Positions 2,289 to 38,212 of a stretch of DNA of 46,425 nucleotides are shown here, piece by piece (the stretch's first letter is position 1; each line of letters opens with the position of its first letter). The notes under the pieces are model-generated. The model saw only the letters and a list, made by a program, of their open reading frames with translations. It did no database searches and was not told where the DNA came from. The stretch lies in contig JAEOSH010000013.1 of NCBI GenBank assembly GCA_016840465.1, positions 1-46,425 of the forward strand, given 5' to 3'. Origin of the DNA: Candidatus Baldrarchaeum yapensis (lineage in GTDB: Archaea; Asgardarchaeota; Baldrarchaeia; Baldrarchaeales; Baldrarchaeaceae). A program made the translations under genes and the position numbers.

Positions 2289-4226
2289 GTGAAGGGGCTC
2301 CTCATACTTACCGTGATTGGATTATTGATAGTATCATCTCTCCACTTTGTAATCACTGCACAATATCCTAATAACCTAACTTATATTCCCCACGAAGACC
2401 CCAATACTGCGCAAGAACGAACAGATACAACTGGAATTCTCATGCTCTTCGTTAATATCTCCGAATTTGCCGCTTCAGAGAATTATGATGATGCTAAAAC
2501 GTTATTAGCGCAATTAAACAAGATCACCGTGTCTGAAGACCTCAAATACACCATTTGGAGACTTACAAATCTCTCAGCAGGACTCATCGACATATTACAA
2601 GAATTAAAGACCACATTACATCAAGCTGAAATACTATTAGATCAAATGTTGCTCAACGACTCCATTCCCTTAATAGAAAAAGCTGAAAACCTAACAAGAT
2701 CTGCAACGATTCTTCTGAGAGAAATAAAAGATGCTGTAGAAACCCTTTATTTGAGGCTTAATCTGCAGTCTGCAATGGAAATACACCTCAAAGACAAACT
2801 TGATAAACTTCTCGTCAAATTAGAAGACCTATTAAACAAGTATAAAAGCCTCTTAAACGATCTTAAAGAACGCGTCCACGAAATAAACGAAAGAAACCTT
2901 AATGAAACAATTCTTCTCCTGTACTGCAATACAACTAAAGCATTTGTTGGAAGTTTCGTAAAATTATATGGCACCTTGTCATGGAGCGGAGGAGCGCTCC
3001 CAGGTCGGCGGATTACCATCCTCTTGAATGAAGTCCCCCTACAGAACGTCACAACCGATAGTAATGGTAATTACGAGGTGATAGTAAAACTACCGTATAT
3101 CTATACAAATAGTATCTCCTTTAGAGCCTTATTTGTGCCGTCCGACGACGATAAACTCCACTTTTTGGGTTCTAAAAGTCCTCAGGTCACCGTGCAACTC
3201 CTCTTCTTCAAAACCTTCGTCAATGTAACAATAATGGGCGATGCCCATCCCGGCCTTCCCATAAATGTCACCGGAATAATACGTGTGAAAAATCAAACAA
3301 CACCGGGGAAAAAACTCTTCCAAATATTTATTGATAATAAACTCCTAGTAGAGGACCTCTCAAATCCAGATGGCACTTTCAACGTCTCTGTCACCTTAAA
3401 TCCTAATATTTCTGTCGGCCTGCATAAATTGACAGTACATGTAAAGCCGAATAAAACACACTCTGGGGCATCTGTAAACATAACATTCGCCGTGACGAAA
3501 TTACCGTTACACGTTCACTTAGATGCGCCATACCTCGTATTCGCACCATTAACAATGACAATTAAGGGTAATATATCATGGGAACAAGGCCCATTTTCTA
3601 ATGCAACAATAATAATAATGTGTGAAGACAGAATCTTTACGACAAAACCGGATGATCATGGATCCTTTAAGATCAATATCAATGTAGAATTCTTCCCCTC
3701 CATCATTATGGACGAAAAAATCGAGATCTTTATTAAACCAGTAGAACCGTGGTTCTCTGAAGAAAAAATCACAATTCGAATCGTGAAAATAAATATCGTA
3801 AATATGGGATTGCTTTTTATGTTTGCTGCTACATTCGGGTTTCTGGCCCTCCCTAAAAAGAGATTCACCATCAAGAAGCCAGCTAGAAAAGAGGAGTTGC
3901 CGGTGAAAGTCGAACCGCCCCATAAAACTATTCCGAGCGAAATGAAGATTAAAGTTTTGGAAAAAAACGTAAGGATGGTAGTTAAAATATACGAAGAGGC
4001 CTTAAAGACGTTACTCAGAAAATTAAACCTGAGAATTGAACCATATATGACTTTAAGAGAAATCCTAAAACTGGTATCCTCAGACCTTAAGGAAACTTAC
4101 AAGCCCTTCTCCAAATTGACTTTTATTGTCGAAAAATCTATTTACTCGATGCACCCTCCCTCAGAAAAAGAAATAGAAGAGGCAAGGCACCTCTTAGAAG
4201 ATATTAAGAGGGGGACTGGAGAGTGA
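2289..4226 (+). CDS. Secreted Ig-like repeat protein with TM anchor and DUF4129-like cytoplasmic tail
   Basis: The product is 645 aa starting at GTG 2289, after an AGGGAGAG ribosome-binding site. Residues 1-24 look like a signal peptide. Residues ~45-205 are helical and coiled-coil-like. Residues ~220-500 hold about three tandem beta-sandwich units of the Ig-like/carboxypeptidase-regulatory type, recognisable from repeated patterns such as N-V-T-T-D-S-N-G-N-Y and D-G-T-F-N-V. There are many N-x-S/T sites, as expected for a glycosylated exterior domain. One membrane helix (~515-533) is followed by a basic stretch and a cytosolic helical domain with the T-L-R-E-I pattern of DUF4129. DUF4129 domains commonly accompany MoxR and DUF58 genes, where they are thought to act in the envelope. 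The stop overlaps the next start by 4 bases (GTGA), so translation is coupled. Confidence 0.8.
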   Translation: MKGLLILTVIGLLIVSSLHFVITAQYPNNLTYIPHEDPNTAQERTDTTGILMLFVNISEFAASENYDDAKTLLAQLNKITVSEDLKYTIWRLTNLSAGLIDILQELKTTLHQAEILLDQMLLNDSIPLIEKAENLTRSATILLREIKDAVETLYLRLNLQSAMEIHLKDKLDKLLVKLEDLLNKYKSLLNDLKERVHEINERNLNETILLLYCNTTKAFVGSFVKLYGTLSWSGGALPGRRITILLNEVPLQNVTTDSNGNYEVIVKLPYIYTNSISFRALFVPSDDDKLHFLGSKSPQVTVQLLFFKTFVNVTIMGDAHPGLPINVTGIIRVKNQTTPGKKLFQIFIDNKLLVEDLSNPDGTFNVSVTLNPNISVGLHKLTVHVKPNKTHSGASVNITFAVTKLPLHVHLDAPYLVFAPLTMTIKGNISWEQGPFSNATIIIMCEDRIFTTKPDDHGSFKININVEFFPSIIMDEKIEIFIKPVEPWFSEEKITIRIVKINIVNMGLLFMFAATFGFLALPKKRFTIKKPARKEELPVKVEPPHKTIPSEMKIKVLEKNVRMVVKIYEEALKTLLRKLNLRIEPYMTLREILKLVSSDLKETYKPFSKLTFIVEKSIYSMHPPSEKEIEEARHLLEDIKRGTGE

Positions 4227-24956: not shown

Positions 24957-25169
24957 GTGAATATCATATGTGTAATCACAATCAGGATAGATGACGAACT
25001 CATCAAGGAATTGGAGGCGATAAAGGAGAGATACAAGTTCAAGTCGCTCAGCGAGGTGGTGAGGAAGGCAATAAAGGAATTCGTTCTGAGCAGAACGCTA
25101 CCATGGAGTAGCCGCGAGGAAGTCTACCGCTACTTCCGCGAGAAAAGGAAGGCTGTGCAGGGGGTCTGA
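24957..25169 (+). CDS. vapB: Ribbon-helix-helix (CopG/VapB-like) antitoxin, 3' end replaced by repeat element
   Basis: The product is 70 aa. V-I-T-I-R-I-D-D-E-L-I-K-E-L is the ribbon strand, followed by two helices with S-L-S-E-V-V-R-K-A-I-K-E-F. It should dimerise, bind DNA and neutralise the PIN toxin encoded downstream. The last codon and the stop are supplied by the repeat element that begins at 25164. Beyond the element, E-D-L-H-E-E-E-D-T-L plus stop continues in a sensible frame and ends overlapping the toxin start. The antitoxin therefore probably once ran about 11 residues further. GTG 24957 lies in CACTTAAGTG (24950-24959), and inverted ATTACAC/GTGTAAT arms flank it, suggesting autoregulation. 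Confidence 0.75.
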   Translation: MNIICVITIRIDDELIKELEAIKERYKFKSLSEVVRKAIKEFVLSRTLPWSSREEVYRYFREKRKAVQGV

Positions 25170-25400
25170 AACAGTTTTCGGTTTAAGTAATTTTCAGGCA
25201 TTTTCGTAAAAGTTTAAATGGTATCGCTCCATTATTCGGTCAGGTCGAGGCCGATGAAAAGGACGAGGTTGATGAGTACGGGTGGGTTCCGCTTCGCCGA
25301 ACCAGTCCGGTGAGCGTGCGAGCGACCGGGAGCCGTGATGGCCCACTTGGTGGCTGAAAATTACTTTAAATTGCTGAATGCTACCAAGTGGGAGAACGGT
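25164..25400 (+). repeat. Long interspersed repeat, copy 1 (237 bp), candidate structured RNA or mobile element
   Basis: This is nearly identical to 36609-36881: about five substitutions plus one 36-base gap. It runs from GTCTGAAACAG to GAGAACGGT. It carries its own TATA-like TTTAAAT (25213-25219), a GGTTC...GAACC hairpin, and a 13-bp hairpin with arms at 25342-25354 and 25380-25392 (one G-T pair). It has no coding potential. It sits exactly between antitoxin and toxin genes that would otherwise overlap, which argues that it inserted there. The ends show no inverted terminal repeats and no clear target duplication. Confidence 0.85.
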
Positions 25401-25431
25401 TAGAGGACCTGCATGAGGAGGAAGATACGCT

Positions 25432-25912
25432 GTGATATATTTGGAGGCGTCGGCTCTCTGGACAATGTACTACGGCGAGCCCGGCGGGGATAACGTGATA
25501 TGGCTCCTTAAGAACTACAAGTGCTACACCGCGGAGTGGATGGTTCTGGAGTTGTGCAGAGCGGTTGCAAAGAAGTACAACCAGGGAGAAATAAATGATA
25601 AGGAGGCGCGCTCCCTCGAGATGTTCATACTGGCGGATATTGAGAGGCTGAAAAGGGAGGGGAGGCTGGAGTTAATAAGGATAACTTGGCCCCTGGATAA
25701 GGAAGGCATACCACCTCATTCTTCCACTCAACCTCTATGCATCCGATGCACTACACTTGGCGGCGCTTCACTCCGGCGCAAAGGTCATGCTGGTCGATGA
25801 CTTCCATTTTACGAGAATGGAGGATAAAGTTAAAGGTATACGCATAGTACTCATCACGGAGAAGAAAGATAACATTATAAAGGTAATTCACGACTCAAAA
25901 AACAGCGATTAG
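25432..25912 (+). pseudogene. vapC: PIN-domain (VapC-like) toxin, single frameshift
   Basis: From GTG 25432 (after GAGGAGGAAG) the frame gives I-Y-L-E-A-S-A-L, the first acidic residue of the PIN active site, then W-M-V-L-E-L-C-R-A-V with the second. It loses homology near 25700. One frame over, 25705-25912 encodes N-L-Y-A-S-D-A-L-H-L-A-A-L, then G-A-K-V-M-L-V-D-D-F-H-F-T, the conserved C-terminal PIN motifs, ending at TAG 25912. One extra base in about 25690-25705 (AAGGAAGGC) explains both halves. Intact, it would be a ~160-aa Mg-dependent RNase. The break could be real or a base-calling error. Confidence 0.8.
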
Positions 25913-26021
25913 ACACTCATGGTTGTTCTTCTATAAATTCGCCACATGCATCCAAGAATCCCTCGTTCTTATATGGCTATGGTGCAATATTTTGTTATGA
26001 GAATATCCTCGGGTGTATTCC

Positions 26022-27281
26022 ATGAAGAAAGTATTACTGCCACAGTGCGCATGGTTTGGAGACTTTGAAATGGAAATATCGTTTCCCGACGAGTGGGAGG
26101 TCAGCGTAAGGACTATGCAAGGGCATGGTAAAAGCTCGATAAGCGAGGAACAAATAAGGCATGCTTTGAGGAACCCTATAGGAACGATGCCCCTCAGCAA
26201 GCTTGCCGAGGGGAAGAAGGACGTTGTAATAATATTCGATGATTTGACGCGCCCAACAAGGGTGTACGAGATAGTGCCGCATATAATTGAGGAACTGAGA
26301 AAAGCGGGAATAAAGGACGAGAATATACGGTTCATATGTGCAAACGGGGCCCACGGGACGTACACCAGAGCCGATTTTACCAAGAAATTGGGAGAGAACT
26401 TCGTTGAGAACTTCGCGGTTTTCAACCATAACCCCTACGCAAACTTGGTCTACGTGGGGGACACAAGCTATGGAACACCAGTAGAGATAAACGCGGAGGT
26501 CATGGCGTGCGATTTGAAGATCGCCGTAGGATGCATAGTTCCTCACCCCTACTTCGGATACGGCGGAGGAGCAAAGATTGTACTTCCCGGCGTCGCGGGT
26601 ATGCGATCCATTTGCTTCAACCACGGGGACCTTGGAGGATACTCCACCGCAATGAACCATAGGAGGGTTCACCCTTCGTGCGATATGGCCTACGGGAGGG
26701 TAAATGAAGAAAACATACTTAGACGTGATGCAGAAGAGGCGGCAAAACTGGCGGGACTCGACTTTATAGTAAATGTGCTCGTGGATCTGCGAAGAAACTC
26801 CACAGACATATTTGCTGGGCACTTCATCGATGCCCAGAGAAGAGGTGTGGAAGTAGCAAAGGACCACTATCGGACACCAATACTGCCCAACGCGGACATC
26901 GTCATTTCAAATGCGTACTCCAAGGGAAGCGAGGCGGCAATAGCAGCGTGGCCGGTGATAACCCTGAAAGAGGGCGGGGACATGGTGATAATAGTGAATT
27001 CCCCAACGGGGCAGGTCCCACACTTCGTTCACGGAAGATGGGGGCTCAAGAGGAGAGGTGGGGACCTCTACCTTCCACCCCTGAGACTTCTGGAGAGAGC
27101 GGGAAGGATCATCCTATTCACACAGTACCCCGAAAAGCAGCCGCCCCTTGAGATCACGATCCCGGAGAAGACGATCACCCTTAAAAGTTGGGACGAGGTT
27201 CTGGAGGAACTCAAGAACAGACATAAAGGCCGAGTGAGAGTTGCAGTGTACCCGGATGCGACGATACAGAAGCCTTTCTAA
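26022..27281 (+). CDS. larA: LarA-family (lactate racemase-like, DUF2088) protein
   Basis: The product is 419 aa. It shows F-D-D-L-T-R-P-T, C-A-N-G-A-H-G, then I-V-P-H-P-Y-F-G-Y-G-G-G-A-K-I-V-L-P-G, which places the His residues and the Lys that carries the nickel-pincer nucleotide in LarA. LarA enzymes racemise or epimerise 2-hydroxy acids. The cofactor genes larB, larC and larE are not in this window. The family is functionally diverse, so lactate itself is not assured. The ATG at 26022 gives the natural N terminus K-K-V-L-L-P; a start at 26013 is also in frame. It stands as a single gene. Confidence 0.85.
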   Translation: MKKVLLPQCAWFGDFEMEISFPDEWEVSVRTMQGHGKSSISEEQIRHALRNPIGTMPLSKLAEGKKDVVIIFDDLTRPTRVYEIVPHIIEELRKAGIKDENIRFICANGAHGTYTRADFTKKLGENFVENFAVFNHNPYANLVYVGDTSYGTPVEINAEVMACDLKIAVGCIVPHPYFGYGGGAKIVLPGVAGMRSICFNHGDLGGYSTAMNHRRVHPSCDMAYGRVNEENILRRDAEEAAKLAGLDFIVNVLVDLRRNSTDIFAGHFIDAQRRGVEVAKDHYRTPILPNADIVISNAYSKGSEAAIAAWPVITLKEGGDMVIIVNSPTGQVPHFVHGRWGLKRRGGDLYLPPLRLLERAGRIILFTQYPEKQPPLEITIPEKTITLKSWDEVLEELKNRHKGRVRVAVYPDATIQKPF

Positions 27282-27345
27282 CTTACCGCCATTTCTTTAA
27301 TCACCCGCCCTCCGTCACTCTCGCAGATGGCGCATGTTGCGAAGA

Positions 27346-27359
27346 TCACATATATGTGA
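27346..27359. promoter_or_regulatory. Perfect 14-base palindrome upstream of the glutamine amidotransferase gene
   Basis: TCACATATATGTGA is fully self-complementary, lies in the 203-base spacer before the gene at 27485, and resembles a dimeric regulator site. It includes a TATA-like core, so it could equally be a promoter element; it is 126 bases from the start codon. Confidence 0.35.
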
Positions 27360-27484
27360 CGAGAAATTCTTAGACGGTTCTTTTTGACCATAAAACTTTT
27401 TTCTGGAGTGGAGACTATCTTGGTATTAGCATGTCCGAAAATCGATCGACAAATTTCTCGATATCGGATAAGTAAGGTGTTCAT

Positions 27485-28413
27485 ATGTGCGGAATTGCAG
27501 GATTGCTTTTCGCATCCGGATCGGGACCCGTTGGTGAGTACCTGATAACAATGCTCAGGGCTCTTCAGCATCGTGGCACGGACTCGACAGGGGCTGCCAT
27601 CTACAGGGATAATGGGAAATCTAGAGACCTGATACTGAGAGTTCTTGCCGAGGACGTGGTGGGGGCGCTTGCAAAGATATCATCCGCGATCGCCAGTGTC
27701 GGTGGAAACATAAGAAACGTGGAGATGAACGTTTCGATAAAGGAGGGATACGGTTACGACAGATACGAGGTCGCATATAACGGTAACATAAGGAGACTTG
27801 TGGAGGCGGTGGAAGGGACGAGGATTGCGAAGATAATAAGCGTAGGAAGATACGTGGAAATACTGAAGGATACTCTTCCGGTCGATGAGTTCAACTCCAC
27901 ATTCAAAGTTTTTAAGATGCAGGGAAGTCACGGACTCGGACATATCCGGTTCTCAACGGAGAGCCGAGTAGACCTCTTTCACGCACACCCATTCCAAGAC
28001 ATCGACAACCCTGATATCGTTGTTGTTCATAACGGCCAGATAACGAACTACTGGAAGATACGTAGAACCCTCGAAATGAAGGGCGTACGTTTCCTCACCG
28101 ACAACGACTCTGAACTAATAGTGCACTACATCGCTTACAAGATGAGCAAGGGAATGAACTTCGAGGACGCGCTAAAGTGTAGTATTCGGGAGCTGGACGG
28201 ACCATTTGCGTACATGATCGCAACACCTGATGCCCTCGGACTTGTGCGCGATAAGTTGGGACTACGCCCCTTAGTTATGGGAGTTAGTGAGGAGGTGCTG
28301 GTGGGGGCGAGTGAAGAGGGGGCATCCAAGCAATAGAGGCAATGTGCGGTTGTGAGTTCTCGAAGAAGTACTTAAGCCCAGGGGAGGTCGTGGTATGGCA
28401 TCTGAAAAGGTGA
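27485..28413 (+). pseudogene. Glutamate synthase GATase subunit (GltA1-like), frameshift near the 3' end
   Basis: M-C-G-I-A-G gives the Cys2 nucleophile of class II glutamine amidotransferases, and L-Q-H-R-G-T-D-S-T-G follows. An ACT-like insert (L-R-V-L-A-E-D-V-V-G-A-L-A-K-I-S-S-A-I-A) occupies ~50-125. Then come H-I-R-F-S-T, H-N-G-Q-I-T-N and T-D-N-D-S-E of the GATase core. The frame stops at 28336. One frame over, I-Q-A-I-E-A-M-C-G-C then S-P-G-E-V-V-V-W completes the domain to TGA 28413. The break lies at the G5 run around 28317-28322; one missing G explains it. Intact, it would release ammonia from glutamine for glutamate synthase. Confidence 0.8.
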
Positions 28414-28757
28414 TCACTGCAAGAGGAAGAAAAACGCGGGAGATAAACCGCATGATAAAGGAGTTCGTCAGGGAGGGAGTCGATAAGATAACGATACTCG
28501 ATCCCATGGGCATCGCCACCCAGGATCCGAGGTTACGGAGAAGACTGGACGTGGAAGTTGCAACAAGGAGGATCGAGAATTTGCTGAAGGCTATGATAAA
28601 GGAGATGTGCATGATCGCACAGCTGGCCGGGAAGACGAGTCCGCTAAATCTCGAAAAGGAGGATCTGAGGGCATTGACCGTGGATGCATCGGCGATCACC
28701 GGAGTGAAACTTGTGGGTTCGGAAAGCGTCGTGAACGGGGCGAATGGTTACGAATAA
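28395..28757 (+). pseudogene. Deletion fusion of glutamate synthase GXGXG (GltA3) start and FMN subunit (GltA2) end
   Basis: The product is 120 aa. Residues ~6-36 (I-T-A-R-G-R-K-T-R-E-I-N-R then E-G-V-D-K-I-T-I-L) match the beginning of the archaeal GXGXG alpha-type subunit. From ~37 (P-M-G-I-A-T-Q-D-P-R-L-R) to the end (K-E-D-L-R-A-L-T-V-D-A-S-A-I-T-G-V-K-L-V-G) it matches the C terminus of the FMN/Fe-S glutamate synthase subunit. Everything between, roughly 2 kb in a normal operon, is gone and the junction is in frame. The gene overlaps the true 3' end of the GATase gene by 19 bases, as expected for the original operon. The FMN-binding core is absent, so it cannot be active. Confidence 0.78.
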
Positions 28758-28821
28758 TTCTGCAAAATCTTTATTCCCCCGTTACCTAATTTACCTCAAA
28801 CTGTGGTGAGGTAGCGGCTAG

Positions 28822-30009
28822 GTGAGTGAGGAGAGGTCCTTCGATGTAATTGTTGTTGGTGCCGGTCCAGCAGGAAGCATGGCAGCGCGGGAGGCGGCAA
28901 GGAGAGGGGTCAGGGTTCTCCTGATAGACAAGGAGAAATTTCCGAGGTACAAGGTGTGCGGCGGTGGGGTTGCCCCCTGGGTCATAAAGAAACTCTCAGT
29001 GCCATCCGATATCATTGAAAGGCATGCTAAGAGGATGGGCGTGTGCGCTCCGCCCTCCTACGAGGTCCTGGAGTTCGAAATGCCAACGGGATACTATCTC
29101 GTATTCAGGGATAAGTTCGATAACTACCTTTTGAAACTGGCGAGGGAGGCAGGAGCAAAGGTTCTGGAAGGCGTCAGGGTAACCGATGTGATCTTCGAGG
29201 GAGATCTCGTTAGAGGTGTGAAAACAACGCGCGGAGAGTTTGAAGCGAAGGTCGTGATAGCATGCGACGGGGCAACTTCCGTGGTGGCGAGGAGAGCCGG
29301 ATTTTGGGATAAATGGTTCACAGAAAAGGGAGAAAGTTGGGAGGAGCACATGGCGTTCTGCGTCCAGAGCGAAATTGCACTGGACGATGAGATCATCGAC
29401 AACAGAATAGGCAATAAGCTTATGTTCTTCGCGGGGTCGAGGGTTGCGCCTCTGGGTTATGGCTGGATCTTCCCCAAGAGGGGAATCGTATCCGTCGGTC
29501 TCGGAAGTGCTGTAGGGGAGTTTGAGGAGAAGCCCACCGAATATCTGAGGAGGTTCATAGAAGAACATCCGGTTGCGTCGAGGCTGCTGGAGGGTGGCAG
29601 GATCGTCAGGGCAAAGGGCTCATACGTGCCTTTCAAGCATACTTTTAAGCCAAGCTATGATAATGGGATTCTCGTGGCGGGGGACGCGTGCGGACATGTG
29701 TCACCAATAACAGGAGAGGGGATTTTCTACGCCGTCAGGGCGGGCATGATAGCCGGGGAGGTTGCGGCAGAGAGCATTAGGAGAGGAGACCAGTCTGCCA
29801 TGTTCCTGAGAGAATACGAGAAGCGGTGGCAACGGGTGATAGGTGTGCATCTTGATGTCCAGGCAAAAATATTTGAGGAGACTTATGCAAAACTCAAAGA
29901 GGTCGAACCCGAGGATGTCGATAAGTACTACGGGGAGGTTCTGAAGGAGGCGTTCCTCAAGTTCATACAGTACCTCTTGTCGTACATTTCGAGGAAAAGG
30001 AAAGGATGA
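28822..30009 (+). CDS. Geranylgeranyl reductase family flavoprotein
   Basis: The product is 395 aa. The N-terminal G-A-G-P-A-G-S-M-A-A dinucleotide fold is followed by K-F-P-R-Y-K-V-C-G-G-G-V and the I-A-C-D-G-A-T-S-V-V motif. V-A-G-D-A-C-G-H-V-S-P-I-T-G-E-G-I lies near residue 290. This is the layout of archaeal FAD-dependent geranylgeranyl reductases, which saturate the isoprenoid chains of membrane ether lipids. Several paralogues usually exist, so the exact substrate is open. GTG 28822 is preceded by GAGGT. It may be co-transcribed with the glutamate synthase remnants, 64 bases upstream. Confidence 0.85.
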   Translation: MSEERSFDVIVVGAGPAGSMAAREAARRGVRVLLIDKEKFPRYKVCGGGVAPWVIKKLSVPSDIIERHAKRMGVCAPPSYEVLEFEMPTGYYLVFRDKFDNYLLKLAREAGAKVLEGVRVTDVIFEGDLVRGVKTTRGEFEAKVVIACDGATSVVARRAGFWDKWFTEKGESWEEHMAFCVQSEIALDDEIIDNRIGNKLMFFAGSRVAPLGYGWIFPKRGIVSVGLGSAVGEFEEKPTEYLRRFIEEHPVASRLLEGGRIVRAKGSYVPFKHTFKPSYDNGILVAGDACGHVSPITGEGIFYAVRAGMIAGEVAAESIRRGDQSAMFLREYEKRWQRVIGVHLDVQAKIFEETYAKLKEVEPEDVDKYYGEVLKEAFLKFIQYLLSYISRKRKG

Positions 30010-30723
30010 CTAACTTGTCATCTCTCTAAGGATGTTCATCATCTGCCTTCCGTTTACTAGCATCCCGGTGTCGTTGTTGAAGAAGACGTAAATTCTCCTA
30101 GGATTTTTTGACAGCATCTGCTCCGCAACTTCCCTTAATTCCTCCTCGCTGTACACGTGCGAGTACCATGCGGTTCTGCCATGCATCCTAAGGTAAATCG
30201 TCCCGTTGATTGCAAAGATCCTCCGGGGGAGATCCGGCGCATCCACGGAAACTAACGTTATCCCGAGATCTTCCGCCCACTTCTCCCACCTTTCCGAAAA
30301 CCACTCAACATGCCTCCACTCGAGGGCAAACCTGTCACCCAATTCCGCCCTTGAGACGAATCTCTCTATTCTCGCAACATACGTCTCGGAGGGCTTAATA
30401 AACGGGGGTAGTTGAAAGAGGTAAAAATCGACCTTGGGGTCAAGCGGTTCAAAAAGATTCCTGAACTTTACCCATGTTTCAAACGCGCGGTTGCTCATCT
30501 TAAAAACGTGAGTTACGAACCTGTTGACCTTCACTGCCCATCGGAACGATTCAGGGGACTTCCTTGCCCACCCTAAAACCTGATTTTTGAACGGGAACCT
30601 GTAGTAACTAGCATTCAACTCGACGCAATTTAAACCGGAATTCTTTACATACCAGTCGAAAGTTCCTCCCTTGTTCCAGTGATACATCCACCCCGACGTT
30701 CCAACGTAAATTTTCATTGACAT
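30010..30723 (-). CDS. DUF72 (YecE-like) protein
   Basis: The product is 237 aa from ATG 30723, supported by GGTGG 6 bases upstream; the frame extends to 30771 without support. K-I-Y-V-G-T-S-G-W near the N terminus, then C-V-E-L-N-A-S-Y-Y-R-F-P, A-L-E-W-R-H and Y-L-R-M-H-G-R-T-A-W-Y are the DUF72 signature of a TIM-barrel fold. The function is unknown. It converges with the reductase gene; the two stop codons abut. Confidence 0.9.
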   Translation of the reverse strand: MSMKIYVGTSGWMYHWNKGGTFDWYVKNSGLNCVELNASYYRFPFKNQVLGWARKSPESFRWAVKVNRFVTHVFKMSNRAFETWVKFRNLFEPLDPKVDFYLFQLPPFIKPSETYVARIERFVSRAELGDRFALEWRHVEWFSERWEKWAEDLGITLVSVDAPDLPRRIFAINGTIYLRMHGRTAWYSHVYSEEELREVAEQMLSKNPRRIYVFFNNDTGMLVNGRQMMNILREMTS

Positions 30724-31018
30724 CGATTCCACCTTCTGAAATACGCCCCATTGCCCGCCAGCAACACACAATGCGGTGCGCTACCGATACACACACTTGA
30801 TTTTTGCCGTCATAAATGTTAAAGTTCCGGATTCCCGCCGACATGCAGTTACATGTCCGTAAAACTCTGAAGTGTTATGATACAAACATATTGAATTAAA
30901 TGTATATACGACGTCATATTACCGTATACCTGTGGAGTGTGGGCAGCCTCCACGCCGTTGGTAGCCACCCTCATGGGCAAATTATTTGATCCGAGGAAGT
31001 GATCAGGAGGGATCGGCA

Positions 31019-32482
31019 TTGCCGGAAGCCGCGCCACTTACAAGCAGTTTGGAGGTGCTTAAGAGCACGATCGATAGAAGACTTGTAAGATTCATACTAA
31101 GGAAACTTTCAGGGCGGTGCTCGAAAGACGAAAAGAGCAGGCTGGAGGTTGCACTGGAACTGTATACCGGTGTGAGGGACAAGGCGTGCTGGACGTGCAC
31201 CCACATAGTTGCGCCGATAGTCAGATGGGCGGTGAGCCGTGGAGGGAAAGCATTCGGGGTAAGCGATGAGCAGCTGAAGGAGAGGTTCAAGGACGTTTAC
31301 TGGCGTAGGGGGCTGGTCAACGTAATAAGGGGAATTGCGAAGTTTGGCGTTAGGAAACCGTTCACACCGGGCGCACCGTTCCTTGTTGTATGGAACTACA
31401 CTCAGATGTGTAACCTTCGGTGTAAGCACTGCTACGCATCTGCTGGAAAGCCCCATCCCAATGAACTGAACACCGAGGAGGCGAAGAATGTCGTTAAAGA
31501 ACTCGCAGACACCGGAGTGACAATAATAGCGTTTTCCGGGGGAGAACCACTTATCAGGAAGGACTTCTTCGAGGTCGCGCAACTAGCGCACGATTACGGA
31601 ATATTCACCGCAGTTGCCACGAATGGAACCCTGATCACCGAGGAGGTTGCTAAGAAGCTTAAGGACATAGGAATAGGCTACGTGCAGATAAGCCTGGATG
31701 GCGCGACCCCCGAAACTCACGATAGCTTCAGAGGTCTTAAGGGGGTTTACGAAAAAGTCATCCGCGCGATAAAGAACTGCGTGAAGCAGGAAGTGTTCGT
31801 GGAAGTTGCAACAACAGCCACGAAGCTGACCTACAAGGAAATTCCTGAGGTCATAGAGCTCTGTGAAAGGCTGGGCGTCAACTGGTGGATGATGTACAAC
31901 TTTGTGCCCACGGGCAGGGGGAGATTCATAATCGAGAACGATTTGAGCCCCGAGGAAAGGGAGGAGTTGCTGAGATTCCTATGGGAGAGACTGAGATCCG
32001 GGAAGAGAATGCAAGTGCTGAGTACCGCACCGCAGTTTGCAAGGGTCGCTCTCCAGATGGAGAGAGTATACGGTAAAGGAGATGAGGAAATCATCGTTCC
32101 AACGCACTTCTATAACCCGCGTCTCCGAGGACAGTTGATAAACCTCAGCGAATTCATAGGGGGGTGCGGCGCCGGTAGGTTCTACTGCGCCATAGACCCC
32201 GATGGGACGATCACGCCTTGCGTCTTCTTCCCATTGCCAGTGGGTAACATTAAAGTGGACGATTTCGAGGAACTATGGGAGACGTGCGAGGTATTTGAGC
32301 ATCTGAGGAATAGGGACTTACTTAAAGGGAACTGTGGAAGATGTGAGTACAGGTATGTTTGTGGCGGATGCCGCGCAAGAGCCTACGGATACTTCAGGGA
32401 TTACCTTGCACCCGATCCCGGATGCATAAACAACAGAGACCTGTGGGAGAAGTTGAAACTCGCAGATGTCGCATCCCATTAG
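31019..32482 (+). CDS. Radical SAM/SPASM protein (AhbD/NirJ-like)
   Basis: The product is 487 aa from TTG 31019; GGAGGG at 31006-31011 with a 7-base gap picks this codon over TTG 30986. A ~115-residue helical N-terminal domain precedes the CX3CX2C motif in M-C-N-L-R-C-K-H-C-Y (~130-137). F-S-G-G-E-P-L follows. The C-terminal SPASM region has G-C-G-A-G-R-F-Y-C-A-I-D-P-D-G, T-P-C-V, N-C-G-R-C and Y-V-C-G-G-C-R, for one or two extra [4Fe-4S] clusters. The core resembles haem-biosynthesis and peptide-modifying enzymes, but no haem genes or precursor peptide are adjacent, so the substrate is open. Confidence 0.85.
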   Translation: MPEAAPLTSSLEVLKSTIDRRLVRFILRKLSGRCSKDEKSRLEVALELYTGVRDKACWTCTHIVAPIVRWAVSRGGKAFGVSDEQLKERFKDVYWRRGLVNVIRGIAKFGVRKPFTPGAPFLVVWNYTQMCNLRCKHCYASAGKPHPNELNTEEAKNVVKELADTGVTIIAFSGGEPLIRKDFFEVAQLAHDYGIFTAVATNGTLITEEVAKKLKDIGIGYVQISLDGATPETHDSFRGLKGVYEKVIRAIKNCVKQEVFVEVATTATKLTYKEIPEVIELCERLGVNWWMMYNFVPTGRGRFIIENDLSPEEREELLRFLWERLRSGKRMQVLSTAPQFARVALQMERVYGKGDEEIIVPTHFYNPRLRGQLINLSEFIGGCGAGRFYCAIDPDGTITPCVFFPLPVGNIKVDDFEELWETCEVFEHLRNRDLLKGNCGRCEYRYVCGGCRARAYGYFRDYLAPDPGCINNRDLWEKLKLADVASH

Positions 32483-32499
32483 CGAACTCTAAATAACTC

Positions 32500-32521
32500 T
32501 TATTTTTTGGTAATGTTTTTT
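32500..32521 (+). terminator. T-rich terminator after the SPASM gene
   Basis: Two T-runs on the plus strand (TTATTTTTT and GTTTTTTAT), 18 to 39 bases after the stop at 32482, fit archaeal intrinsic termination, which depends on T-runs rather than a hairpin. Confidence 0.5.
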
Positions 32522-32722
32522 ATCTGGACGCAACGGTATTCTTTCTGTTTGATCATTTTTCGTCCCTTTATTTACGGGGTGCAATATGGCATCATACCGT
32601 GAACCCGTGCGGGGTAATGGGCAAAGCGTCGGTGGTGTTACCGTTCTCCGTAATCGTACGATGTTACTTTGCAATGTTTATATGCCACTGGAGTATTTTT
32701 GTTCACAAAAGGGGGTTGCTGT

Positions 32723-34054
32723 ATGGGAAAGAAGGGAGATATCGGCGACTGGGAGGATATGGCAAAGAAGTGGCTCAAACTCGTGTATGACCTTATAGAA
32801 AAACCCGAGAAGAAAGAGTTCGAGAGAGCCATGAAACTGGTCGTTGAGACGAGAAAGCTTCTGGATGAGTGCGAGTTTCCGTTGCACCAAGCGCTTGTGA
32901 ATGACATGAGGATGCAACTTGCGACGGTCGTCAATAACACGAAGTACGTCTTGGAGAACGTTCCAAAGGGCAACTATTACATAGTGATGCCCGATTTTGT
33001 AACGCACCTGACAAGGCTCGTCCTCCTAATTGCAAAAGCGATACAAAACGTTTGGTCTGCAAAGAACGGAATAGCATACGAGTATGTGCCACCTGAAGCA
33101 TCAGTATACCTACCGGCATCGCAAGAGGGCTTTTTTCGTCCGGGAGTGACATCCACACCAGCAGCGCCTAGTCCGGCCCCAACTCCAACTGCAGCTCCCA
33201 TGGTTACTGCGGCGCCGACTCCGATGTCGGCATATACGGCTCCAATCCAGCCCCCGCCGTACCCTCCTCAGTATTACTACTCTAAGGCGTACAAGTATGC
33301 CTACTGGACTCCTCGTAGTAGTGCGGGGAGGAGACTTGCCGCATTATCACTTCTGACGTTCCTCCCGATGTTTCTCTCATTTCTGAGGTACAAGGCGGCG
33401 CGTGGCGGAATTTCCCCGCAGGATGTCAGCCTGTTGAAATCATTAATAGACAAATTCAATGTGCTAAGTCGTGGGGTTTCCATTCCAGGAGTAGACCTGT
33501 CGAGTGTGCAGAGTGCGCTTGCAAACGTCGCTAATACTTTGAGAAGCACCGATATTTCCGGGCTGCAGGCATCTCTCATGAGCGCAATCGACAACTTGCA
33601 GAGAACTATAAATCCGCTTGCAAAGCAAGCGGAGAGTTGGCTCAAGGAGAACATCCCCAAGGTTGTTGAAGAAGTCAGGTCTCTCGCGTCCAGCGGGCGG
33701 CTTCCACCCGTCGAATTGAATGACGTCATGATATCCCTTAGAAACGTGTCAAATCTGGTTGGAGACCAGATAAAGGAGATACCGGGAATCGTACAGAGCG
33801 GCGTGCAACAGTTGATTGAGGTTGCGAGGGCCGCCGCACCTGCAGTGACGCATGTAGGAAGGGAGGTTGCTGAAGGAGTCAGGAGAGCGGTAAGCGGCAT
33901 AGGGCTGGGTGGAATATCCCTTCCGTCTCCGGATCAGATAGACTTCGAGAAGATGACAAAGACGGCGGCGGACTTCCTTAAGGCGGCGGACAACGTGATT
34001 AAGCAGGCCACCGAGAATATAGGGAAGCTACTGAAAGACTTCTTAGGCTTTTAA
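32723..34054 (+). CDS. Pro/Ala-linker protein with long amphipathic helical C terminus, unknown family
   Basis: The product is 443 aa from ATG 32723. Upstream lie GGGGG and a TATA box TTTATAT at 32677-32683; ATG 32669 is upstream of the TATA box. Residues ~1-115 are an all-helical domain. Residues ~125-195 are a disordered Pro/Ala/Thr linker followed by a Tyr/Pro-rich patch. A hydrophobic stretch is at ~208-222. The last ~220 residues are strings of amphipathic helices (L-K-S-L-I-D-K-F, L-M-S-A-I-D-N-L, W-L-K-E-N-I-P-K-V-V-E-E-V) resembling apolipoprotein- or phasin-like surface coats. No signal peptide is seen. I recognise no family; a membrane- or lipid-surface role is inference. Confidence 0.75.
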   Translation: MGKKGDIGDWEDMAKKWLKLVYDLIEKPEKKEFERAMKLVVETRKLLDECEFPLHQALVNDMRMQLATVVNNTKYVLENVPKGNYYIVMPDFVTHLTRLVLLIAKAIQNVWSAKNGIAYEYVPPEASVYLPASQEGFFRPGVTSTPAAPSPAPTPTAAPMVTAAPTPMSAYTAPIQPPPYPPQYYYSKAYKYAYWTPRSSAGRRLAALSLLTFLPMFLSFLRYKAARGGISPQDVSLLKSLIDKFNVLSRGVSIPGVDLSSVQSALANVANTLRSTDISGLQASLMSAIDNLQRTINPLAKQAESWLKENIPKVVEEVRSLASSGRLPPVELNDVMISLRNVSNLVGDQIKEIPGIVQSGVQQLIEVARAAAPAVTHVGREVAEGVRRAVSGIGLGGISLPSPDQIDFEKMTKTAADFLKAADNVIKQATENIGKLLKDFLGF

Positions 34055-34062
34055 TTGTTAAC

Positions 34063-34073
34063 TTTTATTTTTT
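34063..34073 (+). terminator. T-rich terminator
   Basis: TTTTATTTTTT, 9 bases after the stop at 34054, is a typical archaeal T-run terminator for the rightward gene. Confidence 0.5.
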
Positions 34074-34213
34074 CGATACGCGAACTTTATACATGCTTTC
34101 TGAATTCTTTTTCGAAATAATATACGATATTCGTTCATGGGGTTCCCACTTCGGAAAACGGTGAGCATACAGATTTATGTTGACAAAGGGCCTCATTATA
34201 ACCGGGTGGGAGC

Positions 34214-35350
34214 ATGGACTTCGAAATAACTGAGAAGCAGAAGAAAATATTCGAGGAGGCCGTCGCTTTCGGCAGGGAGAAAATAGAGCCTGTAATTGCC
34301 GAGTATGATGAGAGGTGCGAATACCCCGTTGACCTCTTTAGGGAAATGGGGAAGCGCGGATGGCTGGGATTCAACATCCCGGAGAAGTACGGAGGAGCCG
34401 AGAGGGACACCATCTCCTACACAATGCTCGTAATGGCGATTTCAAAGTACTCGGCGTCCCTAGGGCTGGCGATAGACACGCATTACCTCCTGTCTGAGGC
34501 AATAAAACTCTACGGAAGCGATGAGATGAAGGAAAACTACCTGCCTAAGCTTGCCAAGACGGAAATCATAGGAGGATTCGCAATAACCGAGCCGACCGCG
34601 GGGTCTGATGCCGCCGGAATAGAGGGCACCGCGGTAAAAGAGGGGGATGAGTACGTCCTTAACGGTGAAAAGAGCATAATAGTGGGTGGCGCTGTTGCGG
34701 ATGCGGTAATTGCGTTCTTCAAAACGGCGCCGGAGGCGGGTGCCAAGGGAATAACAGCCTTTCTTGTCGATACAAAAACTCCTGGGATAAAGAAGGAACC
34801 GCTAAATCCCGTCGGTCTGAGGGCGTGTGGCCTCGCCAAGTACAAGTTTGAGAACGTTAGAGTCCCCAAGGAGAACGTTATAGGGCAAGAGGGACAGGGA
34901 CTTAGGATAGCCCTCTCTGTGCTGGACTTTGGAAGGATAGGGGTTGCATCCGTCGCCACAGGGATAGCGGAGGCGGCATTGGAGCGCGCCATCGAGTATG
35001 CCAAGAAGAGGACTCAGTTTGGACAGCCAATAATGAAGTTCCAAGGACTCAGGTGGATGCTGGCAGACATAAAATTAGGAGTAGAGGCGGCGAAACTCTT
35101 GACGTGGAAAGCAGCGTATCTTAGAGATAAAGGAGTAAGGTACACCGTAGAGGCGGCGATGGCTAAACTATTTGCGACCGAACTCGCAATGAAGGCTACA
35201 ATAAAGGCGATACAGGTGCATGGGCATTACGGCTTCCTCAAGGATCTGCCATTAGAGCGCTACATGCGAGATGCAAAAGGGCTCGAAATAGCGGAGGGCA
35301 CCTCGGAAATACAGAGATTCATAATAGCGAGGGCGCTATTCGGTGGATGA
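34214..35350 (+). CDS. Acyl-CoA dehydrogenase
   Basis: The product is 378 aa, the normal family length. F-A-I-T-E-P-T-A-G-S-D-A is the FAD/substrate signature. R-T-Q-F-G-Q-P-I and I-Q-V-H-G-H-Y-G-F lie in the C-terminal helical domain. I-A-E-G-T-S-E-I-Q-R supplies the catalytic Glu of short- and medium-chain enzymes. It oxidises acyl-CoA to enoyl-CoA with an electron-transfer partner. No other beta-oxidation or ETF genes are in the window, so the chain length and role are open. Confidence 0.93.
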   Translation: MDFEITEKQKKIFEEAVAFGREKIEPVIAEYDERCEYPVDLFREMGKRGWLGFNIPEKYGGAERDTISYTMLVMAISKYSASLGLAIDTHYLLSEAIKLYGSDEMKENYLPKLAKTEIIGGFAITEPTAGSDAAGIEGTAVKEGDEYVLNGEKSIIVGGAVADAVIAFFKTAPEAGAKGITAFLVDTKTPGIKKEPLNPVGLRACGLAKYKFENVRVPKENVIGQEGQGLRIALSVLDFGRIGVASVATGIAEAALERAIEYAKKRTQFGQPIMKFQGLRWMLADIKLGVEAAKLLTWKAAYLRDKGVRYTVEAAMAKLFATELAMKATIKAIQVHGHYGFLKDLPLERYMRDAKGLEIAEGTSEIQRFIIARALFGG

Positions 35351-35355
35351 GGATT

Positions 35356-36531
35356 TCAGATATGTGCTCCTGTATCCGTGACTCCCATGACCTCTTCATA
35401 AACCTCTACCACTCTATGAACCACACGATCCCAGCTGTACCGCTCCTCTACTTTCTCTCTCGCGTTCATTCCCATAGCTTCGAGTCTTGATTTGTCATTT
35501 AGAAGCCATATTATTGCATCGCTCAACTCTCTCACGCTATGAGGTTTCACGAGAATGCCGTCGATTCCGTCGTCTATTATTTCCGGGATTCCTCCAACGC
35601 GGGTTGCAATGACGGGTTTTCCCGCTGCCATCGCCTCTATTATCACTATGCCGAAGGCTTCAGCAAATATCGACGGACAGACGAATACATCGGCCGCCAT
35701 ATACAGTTTTACCAAGTTTTCTCGGTCGACGTAACCCCGCAGGTCGACGTTCCTCTCGATGCCATAGGCCTTCGCCTTGTACTCAAGATAGTCCCTGAGC
35801 ATGCCCTTGCCGACTATCACAAGACGTGCATCGGGGATTTCCTTGACTACGCTCCTGAACGCGTCCAGCAATACATGGACACCCTTCCTCACAACGAGCC
35901 TTCCAACGAATAGTATTATGGGGTTGTCTATCGGGAGACACAGCTCTCTGCGCAGCTCCTCCTTGCTTTTGTTCGGCTTGAACTCCTCGATGTCGACCGC
36001 ATTTGGTATCACGACGAATCTCTCATAGTCCGGGAGCAGGTGTTTCATGAAGCGGCGCACCGCCTCGCTTACGGTTATTATTCTATTGACATTCTCCAGT
36101 GTTTTCCTTATCGGGTACATGAAAACGCGAAGAAATCTCCAAAGGTAGTGATTTTCGTGAGCAACTCCGAGCGAGTGGGCGGTCAAAACGCTAGGTATTC
36201 CGTACTTTGATGCCACCGATACCGAGTACAGGGATATGGGTATGAAGGCGTGATGAACATGTATGATGTCGAATTTCTCACCGAGTAGGGCATCTTTGAC
36301 ATCGCTCAGACTCAGCGGGGAGAGTATCTTGAGCCCCGGTATCACCGCCCCGCTTACCCTTATCACCCTTACGTTATGATGGTTGGTGTCCTCTGCCTCC
36401 TCTACTTTCTTCACAGTTATGATCGTGACATCGTGCCCCCTCTTTGAGAGGCTCTTCGCCAGTTCCCTGATGTGCGAGGAGATTCCACCTACTTTCGAGT
36501 ACCAGTCACTACAAAGGGCAATTTTCATCAT
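35356..36531 (-). CDS. Glycosyltransferase family 4 (GT-B)
   Basis: The product is 391 aa. The N terminus D-W-Y-S-K-V-G-G-I-S-S-H-I-R-E-L is the acceptor-side glycine loop of PIG-A/PimA-type enzymes. F-V-G-R-L-V-V-R-K-G-V and E-A-F-G-I-V-I-I-E-A, an E-x7-E motif, form the NDP-sugar site. There is no membrane helix. It likely adds a hexose or N-acetylhexosamine to a lipid or glycan. The start is ATG 36531 or 36528, with GGTGGT upstream and a TTAAAA TATA-like element near 36578 on the minus strand. It converges with the acyl-CoA dehydrogenase, 5 bases apart. Confidence 0.92.
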   Translation of the reverse strand: MMKIALCSDWYSKVGGISSHIRELAKSLSKRGHDVTIITVKKVEEAEDTNHHNVRVIRVSGAVIPGLKILSPLSLSDVKDALLGEKFDIIHVHHAFIPISLYSVSVASKYGIPSVLTAHSLGVAHENHYLWRFLRVFMYPIRKTLENVNRIITVSEAVRRFMKHLLPDYERFVVIPNAVDIEEFKPNKSKEELRRELCLPIDNPIILFVGRLVVRKGVHVLLDAFRSVVKEIPDARLVIVGKGMLRDYLEYKAKAYGIERNVDLRGYVDRENLVKLYMAADVFVCPSIFAEAFGIVIIEAMAAGKPVIATRVGGIPEIIDDGIDGILVKPHSVRELSDAIIWLLNDKSRLEAMGMNAREKVEERYSWDRVVHRVVEVYEEVMGVTDTGAHI

Positions 36532-36608
36532 ACCACCGGGTCGAAAAACGACCTCACAATAACCTTATTCGGAAGATGTTTTAATAATGGCGCTTTGTGG
36601 TGAACGGA

Positions 36609-36881
36609 GTCTGAAACAGTTTTCGGTTTAAGTAATTTTCAGGCATTTTCGTAAAAGTTTAAATGGTATCGCTCCATTATTCGGTCAGGTCGAGGCCGAT
36701 GAAGAGGACGAGGTTGATTAGTACGGGTGGGTTCCGCTTCGCCGAACCAGTCCGGTGAGCGTGCGGGCGACCGCACGGGATGGACTGGGTAAGGCGGGGC
36801 GGGCGACCGGGAGTCGTGATGGCCCACTTGGTGGCTGAAAATTACTATAAATTGCTGAATGCTACCAAGTGGGAGAACGGT
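36609..36881 (+). repeat. Long interspersed repeat, copy 2 (273 bp), with RNA-like hairpins
   Basis: This is the full-length copy of the element at 25164-25400. It contains 36 extra bases bounded by an 11-base direct repeat (GCGGGCGACCG at 36763 and 36799), which explains the shorter copy as a recombination deletion. It has a TATA-like TTTAAAT (36658-36664), a nested stem CCAGTCC (36747-36753) with GGACTGG (36782-36788), an inner hairpin GTGCGG-GCGA-CCGCAC (36761-36776) with a GNRA tetraloop, and a 13-bp hairpin near the right end. It lies between the GT4 gene and the MiaB-like gene. A minus-strand frame across it (36639-36899) is Pro/Arg-rich and not credible. Confidence 0.85.
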
Positions 36882-36895
36882 ACGCGGCCCGTTAA

Positions 36896-38212
36896 TCATA
36901 GGGGGCGTATCGTGGAAATTACCTCTGCGTCGAGATAGAAGGTGTCTGCGCGGGTTATCCGGATCTCAAACTCGTAGCCTAGGTATTCTTCTCCGAGTTG
37001 GAGGACTATCGGTTTATAGGTGTAATTGCGCGAAACAACACCACCCTTTATCCCTATTCCGGAAACCAACACCTCTCCCCGCCATCCAACCCATCTCTGG
37101 TTCCTGCGGTAGCTTATCTCCTTCACGACCTTCGTCATGAGTCTGCTCCGCTCCTTTATTTTCCACCCCGGAACTTGAGGCTTCATCTTTGCCGCGGGGG
37201 TGTTTGGGCGGGGACCGAATCTTGAAATGTTCACAATGTCGGGCTCCAGTTCCTTGACAAGTTCAACTGTGTCCATGAACTGCTCCTCGGTCTCTCCCGG
37301 AAATCCCACTATCACGTCGGTCTCTATCGTCATCTCTGGAATCTTCCTCCTTATTTCCTTCACTATCTGCCGGAACTCGTCCACAGTATATGGCCTGTTC
37401 ATCCTGCGGAGAATCTCGTCGTTCCCCGACTGCACCGGTATATGTATGAACTTATACACCTTGGGGTGCTGGTACACCTCGAGCATCTCGTCGAGATAGT
37501 TGAGTAGGCGTCCAGGATTCATCATGCCAATGCGGATTCTGAATTTACCCGGCACTTCGACAATTTTGCTCAACAATTCTGGGAGTGAGGTTCCGATGTC
37601 CGCGCCGTAGGCTATGGTGTCCTGCGCGGTTATCCATATCTCCCTGCAACCCTCCCTGACAAACCTCTCCACCTCTCTCACTATCGCATCTGGAGGGAAA
37701 CTGAACAATCGTCCCCTGGCCAGCCTGACCGCGCAGTAGGTACAAGAGCCGAGACAGCCCTCACATATGGGAACTATCCCCACGACTTTGTTCTCCCTAA
37801 GTCGGGGTGTGCATACCTTAACCATCTTATCTGATTTTATGTCAATGATCCCCCTTTCTCCCTCCACAATCCGGCGTGCTATTTCATGAATCCTCTGATA
37901 GGAAAATGGCCCAACGATTGCTGCGAAGTTCGGGATGCTCTTTATGATGCCCTCGAGGTTTATTTTGGGAAGACATCCGGCAACTATAACGGGCTTCCCG
38001 GTCGATGAAAGCTTCCTAAGTTTGTTCAGCACCTTAAATTCCGTTGGTACCTTGACCCCGCACGTGTTAACCACTATAATATCGGCTTCGCTCTCTGAGT
38101 CCACAATCTTGAACCCGTGTTCGGCCAGAATGCCTCTTATTATTTCGCCGTCCGCCTTGTTCTGCGCACACCCGTATGTTATTACGTGAACCTTAGTGCC
38201 ATTTGAGGGCAC
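36896..38212 (-). CDS. MiaB-like tRNA methylthiotransferase (e-MtaB type)
   Basis: The product is 438 aa. The N-terminal UPF0004 domain supplies C15, C51 and C80. The radical SAM motif is C153-x3-C157-x2-C160 (G-C-L-G-S-C-T-Y-C), and a C-terminal TRAM-like domain is present. I-H-I-P-V-Q-S-G-N-D and D-V-I-V-G-F-P-G-E-T are family hallmarks. Archaeal members methylthiolate t6A37 of tRNA to ms2t6A using two [4Fe-4S] clusters. The start is GTG 38212 with AAGGAGGG six bases upstream, overlapping the stop region of the GNAT gene, so the two are co-transcribed. The tRNA-A37 enzyme TrmO is encoded elsewhere in the window. Confidence 0.92.
   Translation of the reverse strand: MPSNGTKVHVITYGCAQNKADGEIIRGILAEHGFKIVDSESEADIIVVNTCGVKVPTEFKVLNKLRKLSSTGKPVIVAGCLPKINLEGIIKSIPNFAAIVGPFSYQRIHEIARRIVEGERGIIDIKSDKMVKVCTPRLRENKVVGIVPICEGCLGSCTYCAVRLARGRLFSFPPDAIVREVERFVREGCREIWITAQDTIAYGADIGTSLPELLSKIVEVPGKFRIRIGMMNPGRLLNYLDEMLEVYQHPKVYKFIHIPVQSGNDEILRRMNRPYTVDEFRQIVKEIRRKIPEMTIETDVIVGFPGETEEQFMDTVELVKELEPDIVNISRFGPRPNTPAAKMKPQVPGWKIKERSRLMTKVVKEISYRRNQRWVGWRGEVLVSGIGIKGGVVSRNYTYKPIVLQLGEEYLGYEFEIRITRADTFYLDAEVISTIRPL

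Follow-up and report, generated by a model that had tools for sequence, protein, structure and literature searches.

The window analyzed here is a stretch of 46,425 nt, i.e., contig C68 of the 2.27-Mb draft genome (G000; 96% complete) of Candidatus Baldrarchaeum yapensis. It carries the same short non-coding sequence at two places, one of them within a toxin-antitoxin operon, which raises the question of what kind of sequence this is and how it came to be there. A sequence-only reading had proposed a transcribed, structured RNA with a private promoter, mobile and belonging to no named family, and had called for a search for further copies in the host genome. The two copies (25164-25400, 237 bp, and 36609-36881, 273 bp) are as similar as that reading stated, with 232 identities, 5 mismatches and one 36-base gap; both contain TTTAAAT and a 13-bp hairpin (25342-25354 with 25380-25392, and 36823-36835 with 36861-36873; 92% complementary), and only the full copy at 36.6 kb has the stems CCAGTCC/GGACTGG and CGTGCGG-GCGA-CCGCACG. 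Chance was excluded as the source of the repeat (E = 1e-149 for a copy against itself and 2e-93 for one window copy against the other); E-values are rough throughout, the evidence base consisting of draft MAGs and few sequences. Rather than being a meaningful variant, the 36-base gap in copy 1 is more likely a deletion between 11-base direct repeats (GCGGGCGACCG at 36763-36773 and 36799-36809, 36 bases apart), as recombination between these repeats would explain the loss. The search of the host genome returned eight full or partial matches, i.e., the two window copies plus six more on contigs C70, C63 (one copy seen as two matches), C83, C32 and C80, the last three being fragments located at contig ends or within about 300 bases of them. 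The repeat probably breaks the assembly at these places, and more copies may exist than the assembly shows.

Mobility, which the earlier reading had suggested from the location of copy 1, is demonstrated by an empty site in vapB. When the gap occupied by copy 1 is closed with four G residues, the vapB frame is restored to ..QGLEDLHEEEDTL, and its stop then overlaps with the beginning of the following gene; no other number of G gives this result. A matching acidic C-terminus of the GLE..(D/E)E(E/D) type was found in 11/11 Asgard VapB homologues, and it appears in the window only if the gap is closed with four G. As GG is present at both borders of the occupied site, the insertion brought a 2-base GG duplication without any longer target duplication, which is what an IS607 crossover leaves. 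At the level of the sequence, insertion of copy 1 into vapB is thus proven. The neighboring vapC-like gene showed no Pfam match and is named from its operon position and a homologous neighbor. The predicted promoter of copy 1 faces this gene (window positions 25213-25432), whose vapB is truncated and separated from it, and may drive the vapC-like gene without an intact antitoxin.

Two properties of the ends had been overlooked in the earlier reading. Both copies are bordered by GG, and both contain a subterminal inverted repeat (TTTAAGTAATTTTCAGGC.. / ..GCTGAAAATTACTTTAA) in which the left end pairs with the loop of the right hairpin. In copy 1, a 19-base inverted repeat is common to the left end (25182-25200) and to the loop of the terminal RNA hairpin (25351-25369); this one stretch would serve both as a recombinase site in the DNA and as a loop in the RNA. 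Overall, the left border has GG in 7/7 readable copies (in copy 2 at a distance of one base), and all readable right borders of the window-repeat subfamily have GAAC-GG, as is the pattern in IS607 (PMC10711439).

The class to which the host belongs was represented by four genomes, including a Candidatus Baldrarchaeota MAG of the same order as the window genome (G001). On contig C267 of G001, 1.2 kb separates the left end of the repeat from its right 230 bp, and the two flank a 345-aa tnpB that is read towards the left end; the G001 counterpart of the left arm of copy 2 is located just past the tnpB stop. Moreover, the C63 copy of the window genome retains approx. 25 bases of the tnpB 3' end and approx. 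27 bases of the tnpB leader on either side of a deletion. As the same ends bracket tnpB in G001 and tnpB remnants are kept in C63, the window copies are derivatives that lack tnpB. Like MITEs, they are short, non-coding and multicopy, share their ends with the G001 tnpB element and have an empty site (in vapB). The window repeats are thus very probably non-autonomous (MITE-like) derivatives of an IS607-type TnpB transposon, with a putative guide-RNA gene (Table 1). What the sequence-only reading said of structure, promoter, mobility and the lack of a named family is supported; the TnpB-transposon origin and the likeness to guide RNAs had escaped it.

The element on G001 C267 does not contain tnpA (a serine recombinase with MerR-like HTH), i.e., the parent elements are themselves without tnpA. 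Intact IS607-type TnpA genes are present elsewhere in the window genome, and mobilization by TnpA in trans is possible, judging from these genes. The inverted-type TnpB was not found in the assembly of the window genome (96% complete, with contigs that break at repeats), and a TnpB partner acting in trans within this host is hypothetical. Searches of phage and plasmid DNA gave no match, TnpB alignment against viral contigs found none, and the plasmid TnpB search found only Thermus TnpB-related proteins (approx. 24% identity). Weak DNA matches in two other Asgard genomes were rejected as chance similarity to GA-rich coding sequence.

Table 1. Positions in the window of the two copies, their predicted RNA parts and the neighboring genes
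Feature	Positions	Strand	Basis
vapB-like antitoxin (ribbon-helix-helix), shortened by copy 1	24957..25169	+	Pfam RHH_1; homologues extend past the insertion
GG core dinucleotide, left (TAM-side) border, copy 1	25162..25163	.	sequence; 4-G empty site restores VapB
Copy 1 in the vapB 3' end, non-autonomous element with RNA part shortened by a 36-base deletion	25164..25397	+	alignment, empty site
Archaeal TATA box (TTTAAAT), RNA gene of copy 1	25213..25219	+	position conserved in relatives
RNA scaffold, copy 1, middle stem damaged by deletion	25240..25399	+	model R1, E = 6e-38; folding z = -1.9
GG core dinucleotide, right (guide-side) border, copy 1; also the final two bases of the RNA scaffold	25398..25399	.	
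Predicted guide, copy 1: right flank, start of the vapB remainder	25400..25419	+	inferred from position of RNA 3' end and empty site
vapC-like gene, parted from vapB by the insertion	25432..25800	+	operon position, homologous neighbor
GG, left (TAM-side) border, copy 2, one A before the element	36606..36607	.	
Copy 2, non-autonomous element with intact RNA part, between glycosyltransferase and radical-SAM (MiaB-like) genes	36609..36878	+	
Left arm of subterminal inverted repeat (partner 36837-36859), likely recombinase-binding DNA	36628..36650	+	
Archaeal TATA box (TTTAAAT), RNA gene of copy 2	36658..36664	+	
RNA scaffold, copy 2, with a GA-rich hairpin (5'), a long stem (middle) and a hairpin (3')	36685..36880	+	model R1; z = -5.4
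RNA 3'-terminal hairpin, common to the canonical guide RNA of the G001 zinc-finger tnpB	36823..36873	+	
GG core dinucleotide, right (guide-side) border, copy 2	36879..36880	.	
Predicted guide, copy 2: right flank	36881..36900	+	inferred as for copy 1

Three elements are predicted in the fold of the right half of the repeat (approx. 200 bp), read outward: first a small GA-rich hairpin, then a long stem with interruptions and, at the very border, a 3' hairpin that CCGU/ACGG closes; in copy 2, this 4-bp closing stem ends at the element border. Minimum energies of the intact copies and of relatives were 3.7 to 6.5 SD below those of dinucleotide shuffles, and those of copy 1 and the C63 copy, which both look decayed, were only 1.9 and 0.9 SD below. 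Copy 1, with its broken stem, is probably non-functional, and the intact copies (in the window at 36.6 kb and on contig C70) could still be functional. A covariance model (R1) built from five close copies also found the RNA upstream of a tnpB in genome G002 (E = 9e-16) and a locus on G001 contig C162 (E = 1.9e-5); a further match, at L036 4116-4286, was attributed to chance, as it falls within a predicted reading frame and many of its pairs are broken. A total of 21 of 57 pairs were altered on both sides, as compared to 6.2 in shuffled and at most 13 in slid alignments, with 92% of cells paired; as they come from seven sequences (five of them close) and an alignment fitted to the structure, these counts lean towards the structure. 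Covariation and folding z-scores down to -6.5 on the outward strand thus support the structured RNA, and the position of the TATA box supports the predicted private promoter. On the other hand, the compact nested stems with a GNRA loop, which together with the promoter had suggested a structured RNA to the earlier reading, represent the variable apex of the long middle stem and not a conserved core; the GNRA hairpin is missing from copy 1 and from divergent relatives and was rejected as the functional core.

One could argue that the conserved right half acts as DNA only, i.e., that it is a palindromic transposon end bound by the recombinase and that the RNA fold is a by-product, since the loop of the terminal hairpin contains one arm of the subterminal inverted repeat and recombinase-bound ends can have palindromes. 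However, the long middle stem is located well inside the element, shows covariation and makes use of G-U pairs, folding is far stronger on the outward strand than on the complementary one (-87 as compared to -65), and the 5' GA-rich hairpin and the TATA box are kept in divergent relatives with different ends. We thus consider a DNA-only function quite unlikely and retain the reading of the right half as a structured RNA.

Regarding the family to which this RNA might belong, no Rfam gathering threshold was reached in the window, consistent with the earlier statement that there is no named family. A permissive Rfam search of the window gave weak snoRNA matches only, and box C/D snoRNAs (sR45 and snoZ206; E = 1.8 and 4.6 only) were rejected, as the proper boxes are missing. 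Among the relatives, one RNA (G001B; L027 255-328, minus strand) is weakly matched by the Sulfolobus sRNA Sso133 (E = 0.0027, below the Rfam gathering threshold). This match would fit a host antisense or regulatory RNA that arose from a transposon by domestication, the origin proposed for RNA-257 of Saccharolobus solfataricus, and so would the precedent itself, as RNA-257(1-4) are transcribed as standalone RNAs from their own promoters and derive from the distal part of a transposase gene of the resolvase-bearing ISC1904 (PMC3674436). Such domestication is quite unlikely here, as the RNA has kept its link with tnpB in five loci and terminates at the element border, and as the copies are young and occupy unrelated insertion places. 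A 4.7-kb IMG/VR contig contains a clear Sso133 (L080 2429-2502, minus strand) with its own TATA-like box and no recognized tnpB; direct sequence comparison of this locus with the G001B RNA gave a score of 28 (shuffle maximum 30), and the link represents a lead only.

We thus return to the transposon-borne RNA and its relation to tnpB. In five loci (two in G001 and one each in G002, G003 and G165), the RNA is located upstream of tnpB and is divergent from it, reading outward from a TATA-like box; in these loci, this RNA does not overlap the tnpB 3' end, as its homologue does in the C162 locus. In four Baldrarchaeota loci, the upstream RNA had z-scores of -6.5, -3.7, -4.5 and -5.1, and the last 170 nt of the tnpB strand folded no better than shuffles (z = -0.3, +2.5, -1.5 and +0.3). 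The scaffold ends at the element border with GAACGG or GAACCC, followed by a variable flank, as in TnpB guide RNAs, and the opposite border has a TAM-like GG or CC. Two loci (G001B and G003A) have CC at both borders (left borders placed by eye from an ACAGTT motif; the left border in G165 is not clear) and a closing stem of GGGU/ACCC instead of CCGU/ACGG. As CCGU/ACGG occurs with GG and GGGU/ACCC with CC, the stem and the crossover dinucleotide change together. With regard to the guide-proximal pseudoknot of TnpB guide RNAs, the predicted folds show local pairing of the 3' end; what is drawn as a 4-bp closing stem may actually be a pseudoknot, as in ISDra2 (PMC10097598).

The inverted-type TnpB matches TIGR01766 and keeps the RuvC D-E-D triad (D195/E259/D322 invariant), and its predicted fold (model pLDDT 77) is close to Cas12f and ISDra2 TnpB (Foldseek). 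The C4 zinc finger is absent from the four inverted-type proteins, in which cysteine pairs are missing from the stretch between PAYTS and GLD. A small ORF of DNA-binding type precedes tnpB and overlaps or abuts it in an antitoxin-like arrangement (L011 approx. 3396-3532, minus strand; L026, L027 and L028); named by eye, it is ribbon-helix-helix-like in G001A and AbrB/SpoVT-like in G002, G001B and G003A. TnpB-related genes with a long C-terminal read-through were also observed (G066, G069 and G227). An upstream, divergent TnpB guide RNA was not found in the literature searched; this search was partial and priority is not certain.

The locus on G001 C162 links these RNAs to canonical guide RNAs. 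Its RNA occupies the canonical place of an reRNA: it shares its strand with a zinc-finger tnpB reading, which is broken into several frames, and overlaps this reading at the 3' end. The terminal hairpin and GAGAACGG end of this locus align with the window over 58 bases with a score of 64 (maximum of 29 in 1000 shuffles), this strongest homology to a canonical guide RNA lying mainly in the 3' domain, which also holds the recombinase-binding repeat. A decayed tnpB copy on contig C5 of the window genome has the same kind of ending. The same genome contains a canonical IS607 element with tnpA and a zinc-finger tnpB (L036 6716-9301, minus strand); downstream of it is an RNA-like stretch that shares the 5' motif CGAGACCGATGA..TGAGGTTGATG (weak, E = 0.26 alone). 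An ORF resembling a LAGLIDADG-type endonuclease is located between this tnpB and the RNA-like stretch, and a similar ORF follows tnpB at L037 3718-4491.

As the window RNA occurs without tnpB, it might also have an origin of its own, as a mobile structured RNA with no relation to TnpB that a tnpB element captured. This we regard as very improbable, as the C63 copy keeps tnpB-flank sequence and the RNA accompanies tnpB at each of the five divergent loci and occupies the canonical position in C162. The window RNA is best read, from these comparisons, as a putative reRNA (omega-RNA) gene uncoupled from an inverted tnpB.

Under this reading as a guide-RNA gene, the RNA would start about 25 bases past TTTAAAT and cross the element end into the flank, so that by readthrough the flanking DNA would become the guide, and GG at the opposite element end would act as the TAM. 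For IS607, it has been published that the TAM is GGG, that crossover takes place at GG and that the scaffold includes the flanking base (PMC10711439). IS607 TnpA would move the element in trans, and TnpB, likewise in trans, would use the window RNA to cut the emptied site, so that the element returns, a last step modeled on the role published for TnpB (PMC8612924). In the parent elements, where tnpB is inverted relative to the RNA, the guide RNA would come from its own promoter and not from the tnpB message.

MITEs and standalone omega-RNA loci are non-autonomous and share ends or RNA with an autonomous element; the present case differs in that a complete, promoter-driven guide-RNA-like gene is located in an IS607-like non-autonomous Asgard element. 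As in the IS607 TnpB/reRNA systems (ISXfa1, PMC10711439; ISFba1 with its RAGATH-18-derived reRNA, PMC11061315), there is a GG-type recombination border, a fixed 3' dinucleotide of the RNA, an RNA that ends at the element border, a predicted guide in the flank and a GG-containing predicted TAM side. Unlike in those systems, tnpB is inverted and located upstream of an RNA with its own predicted promoter, tnpA is absent, TnpB has no zinc finger and the RNA has no Rfam match. ISDra2-type omega-RNA/reRNA (PMC8612924, PMC10097598) is similar in the RuvC fold with D-E-D and in a scaffold of 100-200 nt followed by a flank-derived guide; however, it overlaps the tnpB 3' end on the same strand, a place that is unstructured in the four loci tested here. 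The nearest published case of standalone copies with their own promoters is the RNA-257(1-4) set of S. solfataricus (PMC3674436), which also comprises short RNAs from an archaeal transposon with resolvase and transposase; those RNAs come from the distal part of the transposase gene and were described as antisense, whereas here both ends are kept and insertion is demonstrated.

Overall, we consider it somewhat better than an even chance that an Asgard TnpB lineage has uncoupled its guide RNA, with an inverted tnpB and a separate RNA promoter, that mobile guide-RNA genes without tnpB each program TnpB in trans against their own empty site and that the closing stem is tied to recombinase specificity. 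In the TnpB systems of the literature considered here (e.g. PMC8612924, PMC10097598), the guide RNA overlaps the tnpB 3' end, an arrangement that shapes current thinking about guide-RNA production and the origin of Cas12-CRISPR. A separate, promoter-driven RNA gene that is able to travel without the nuclease would be a natural model for the separation of the nuclease and RNA genes in CRISPR. Small synthetic constructs would suffice for testing this lineage with its separate RNA gene, and it offers a compact TnpB without a zinc finger from a host lineage that is probably heat-adapted. These data would also place TnpB-type guide-RNA elements in Asgard archaea.
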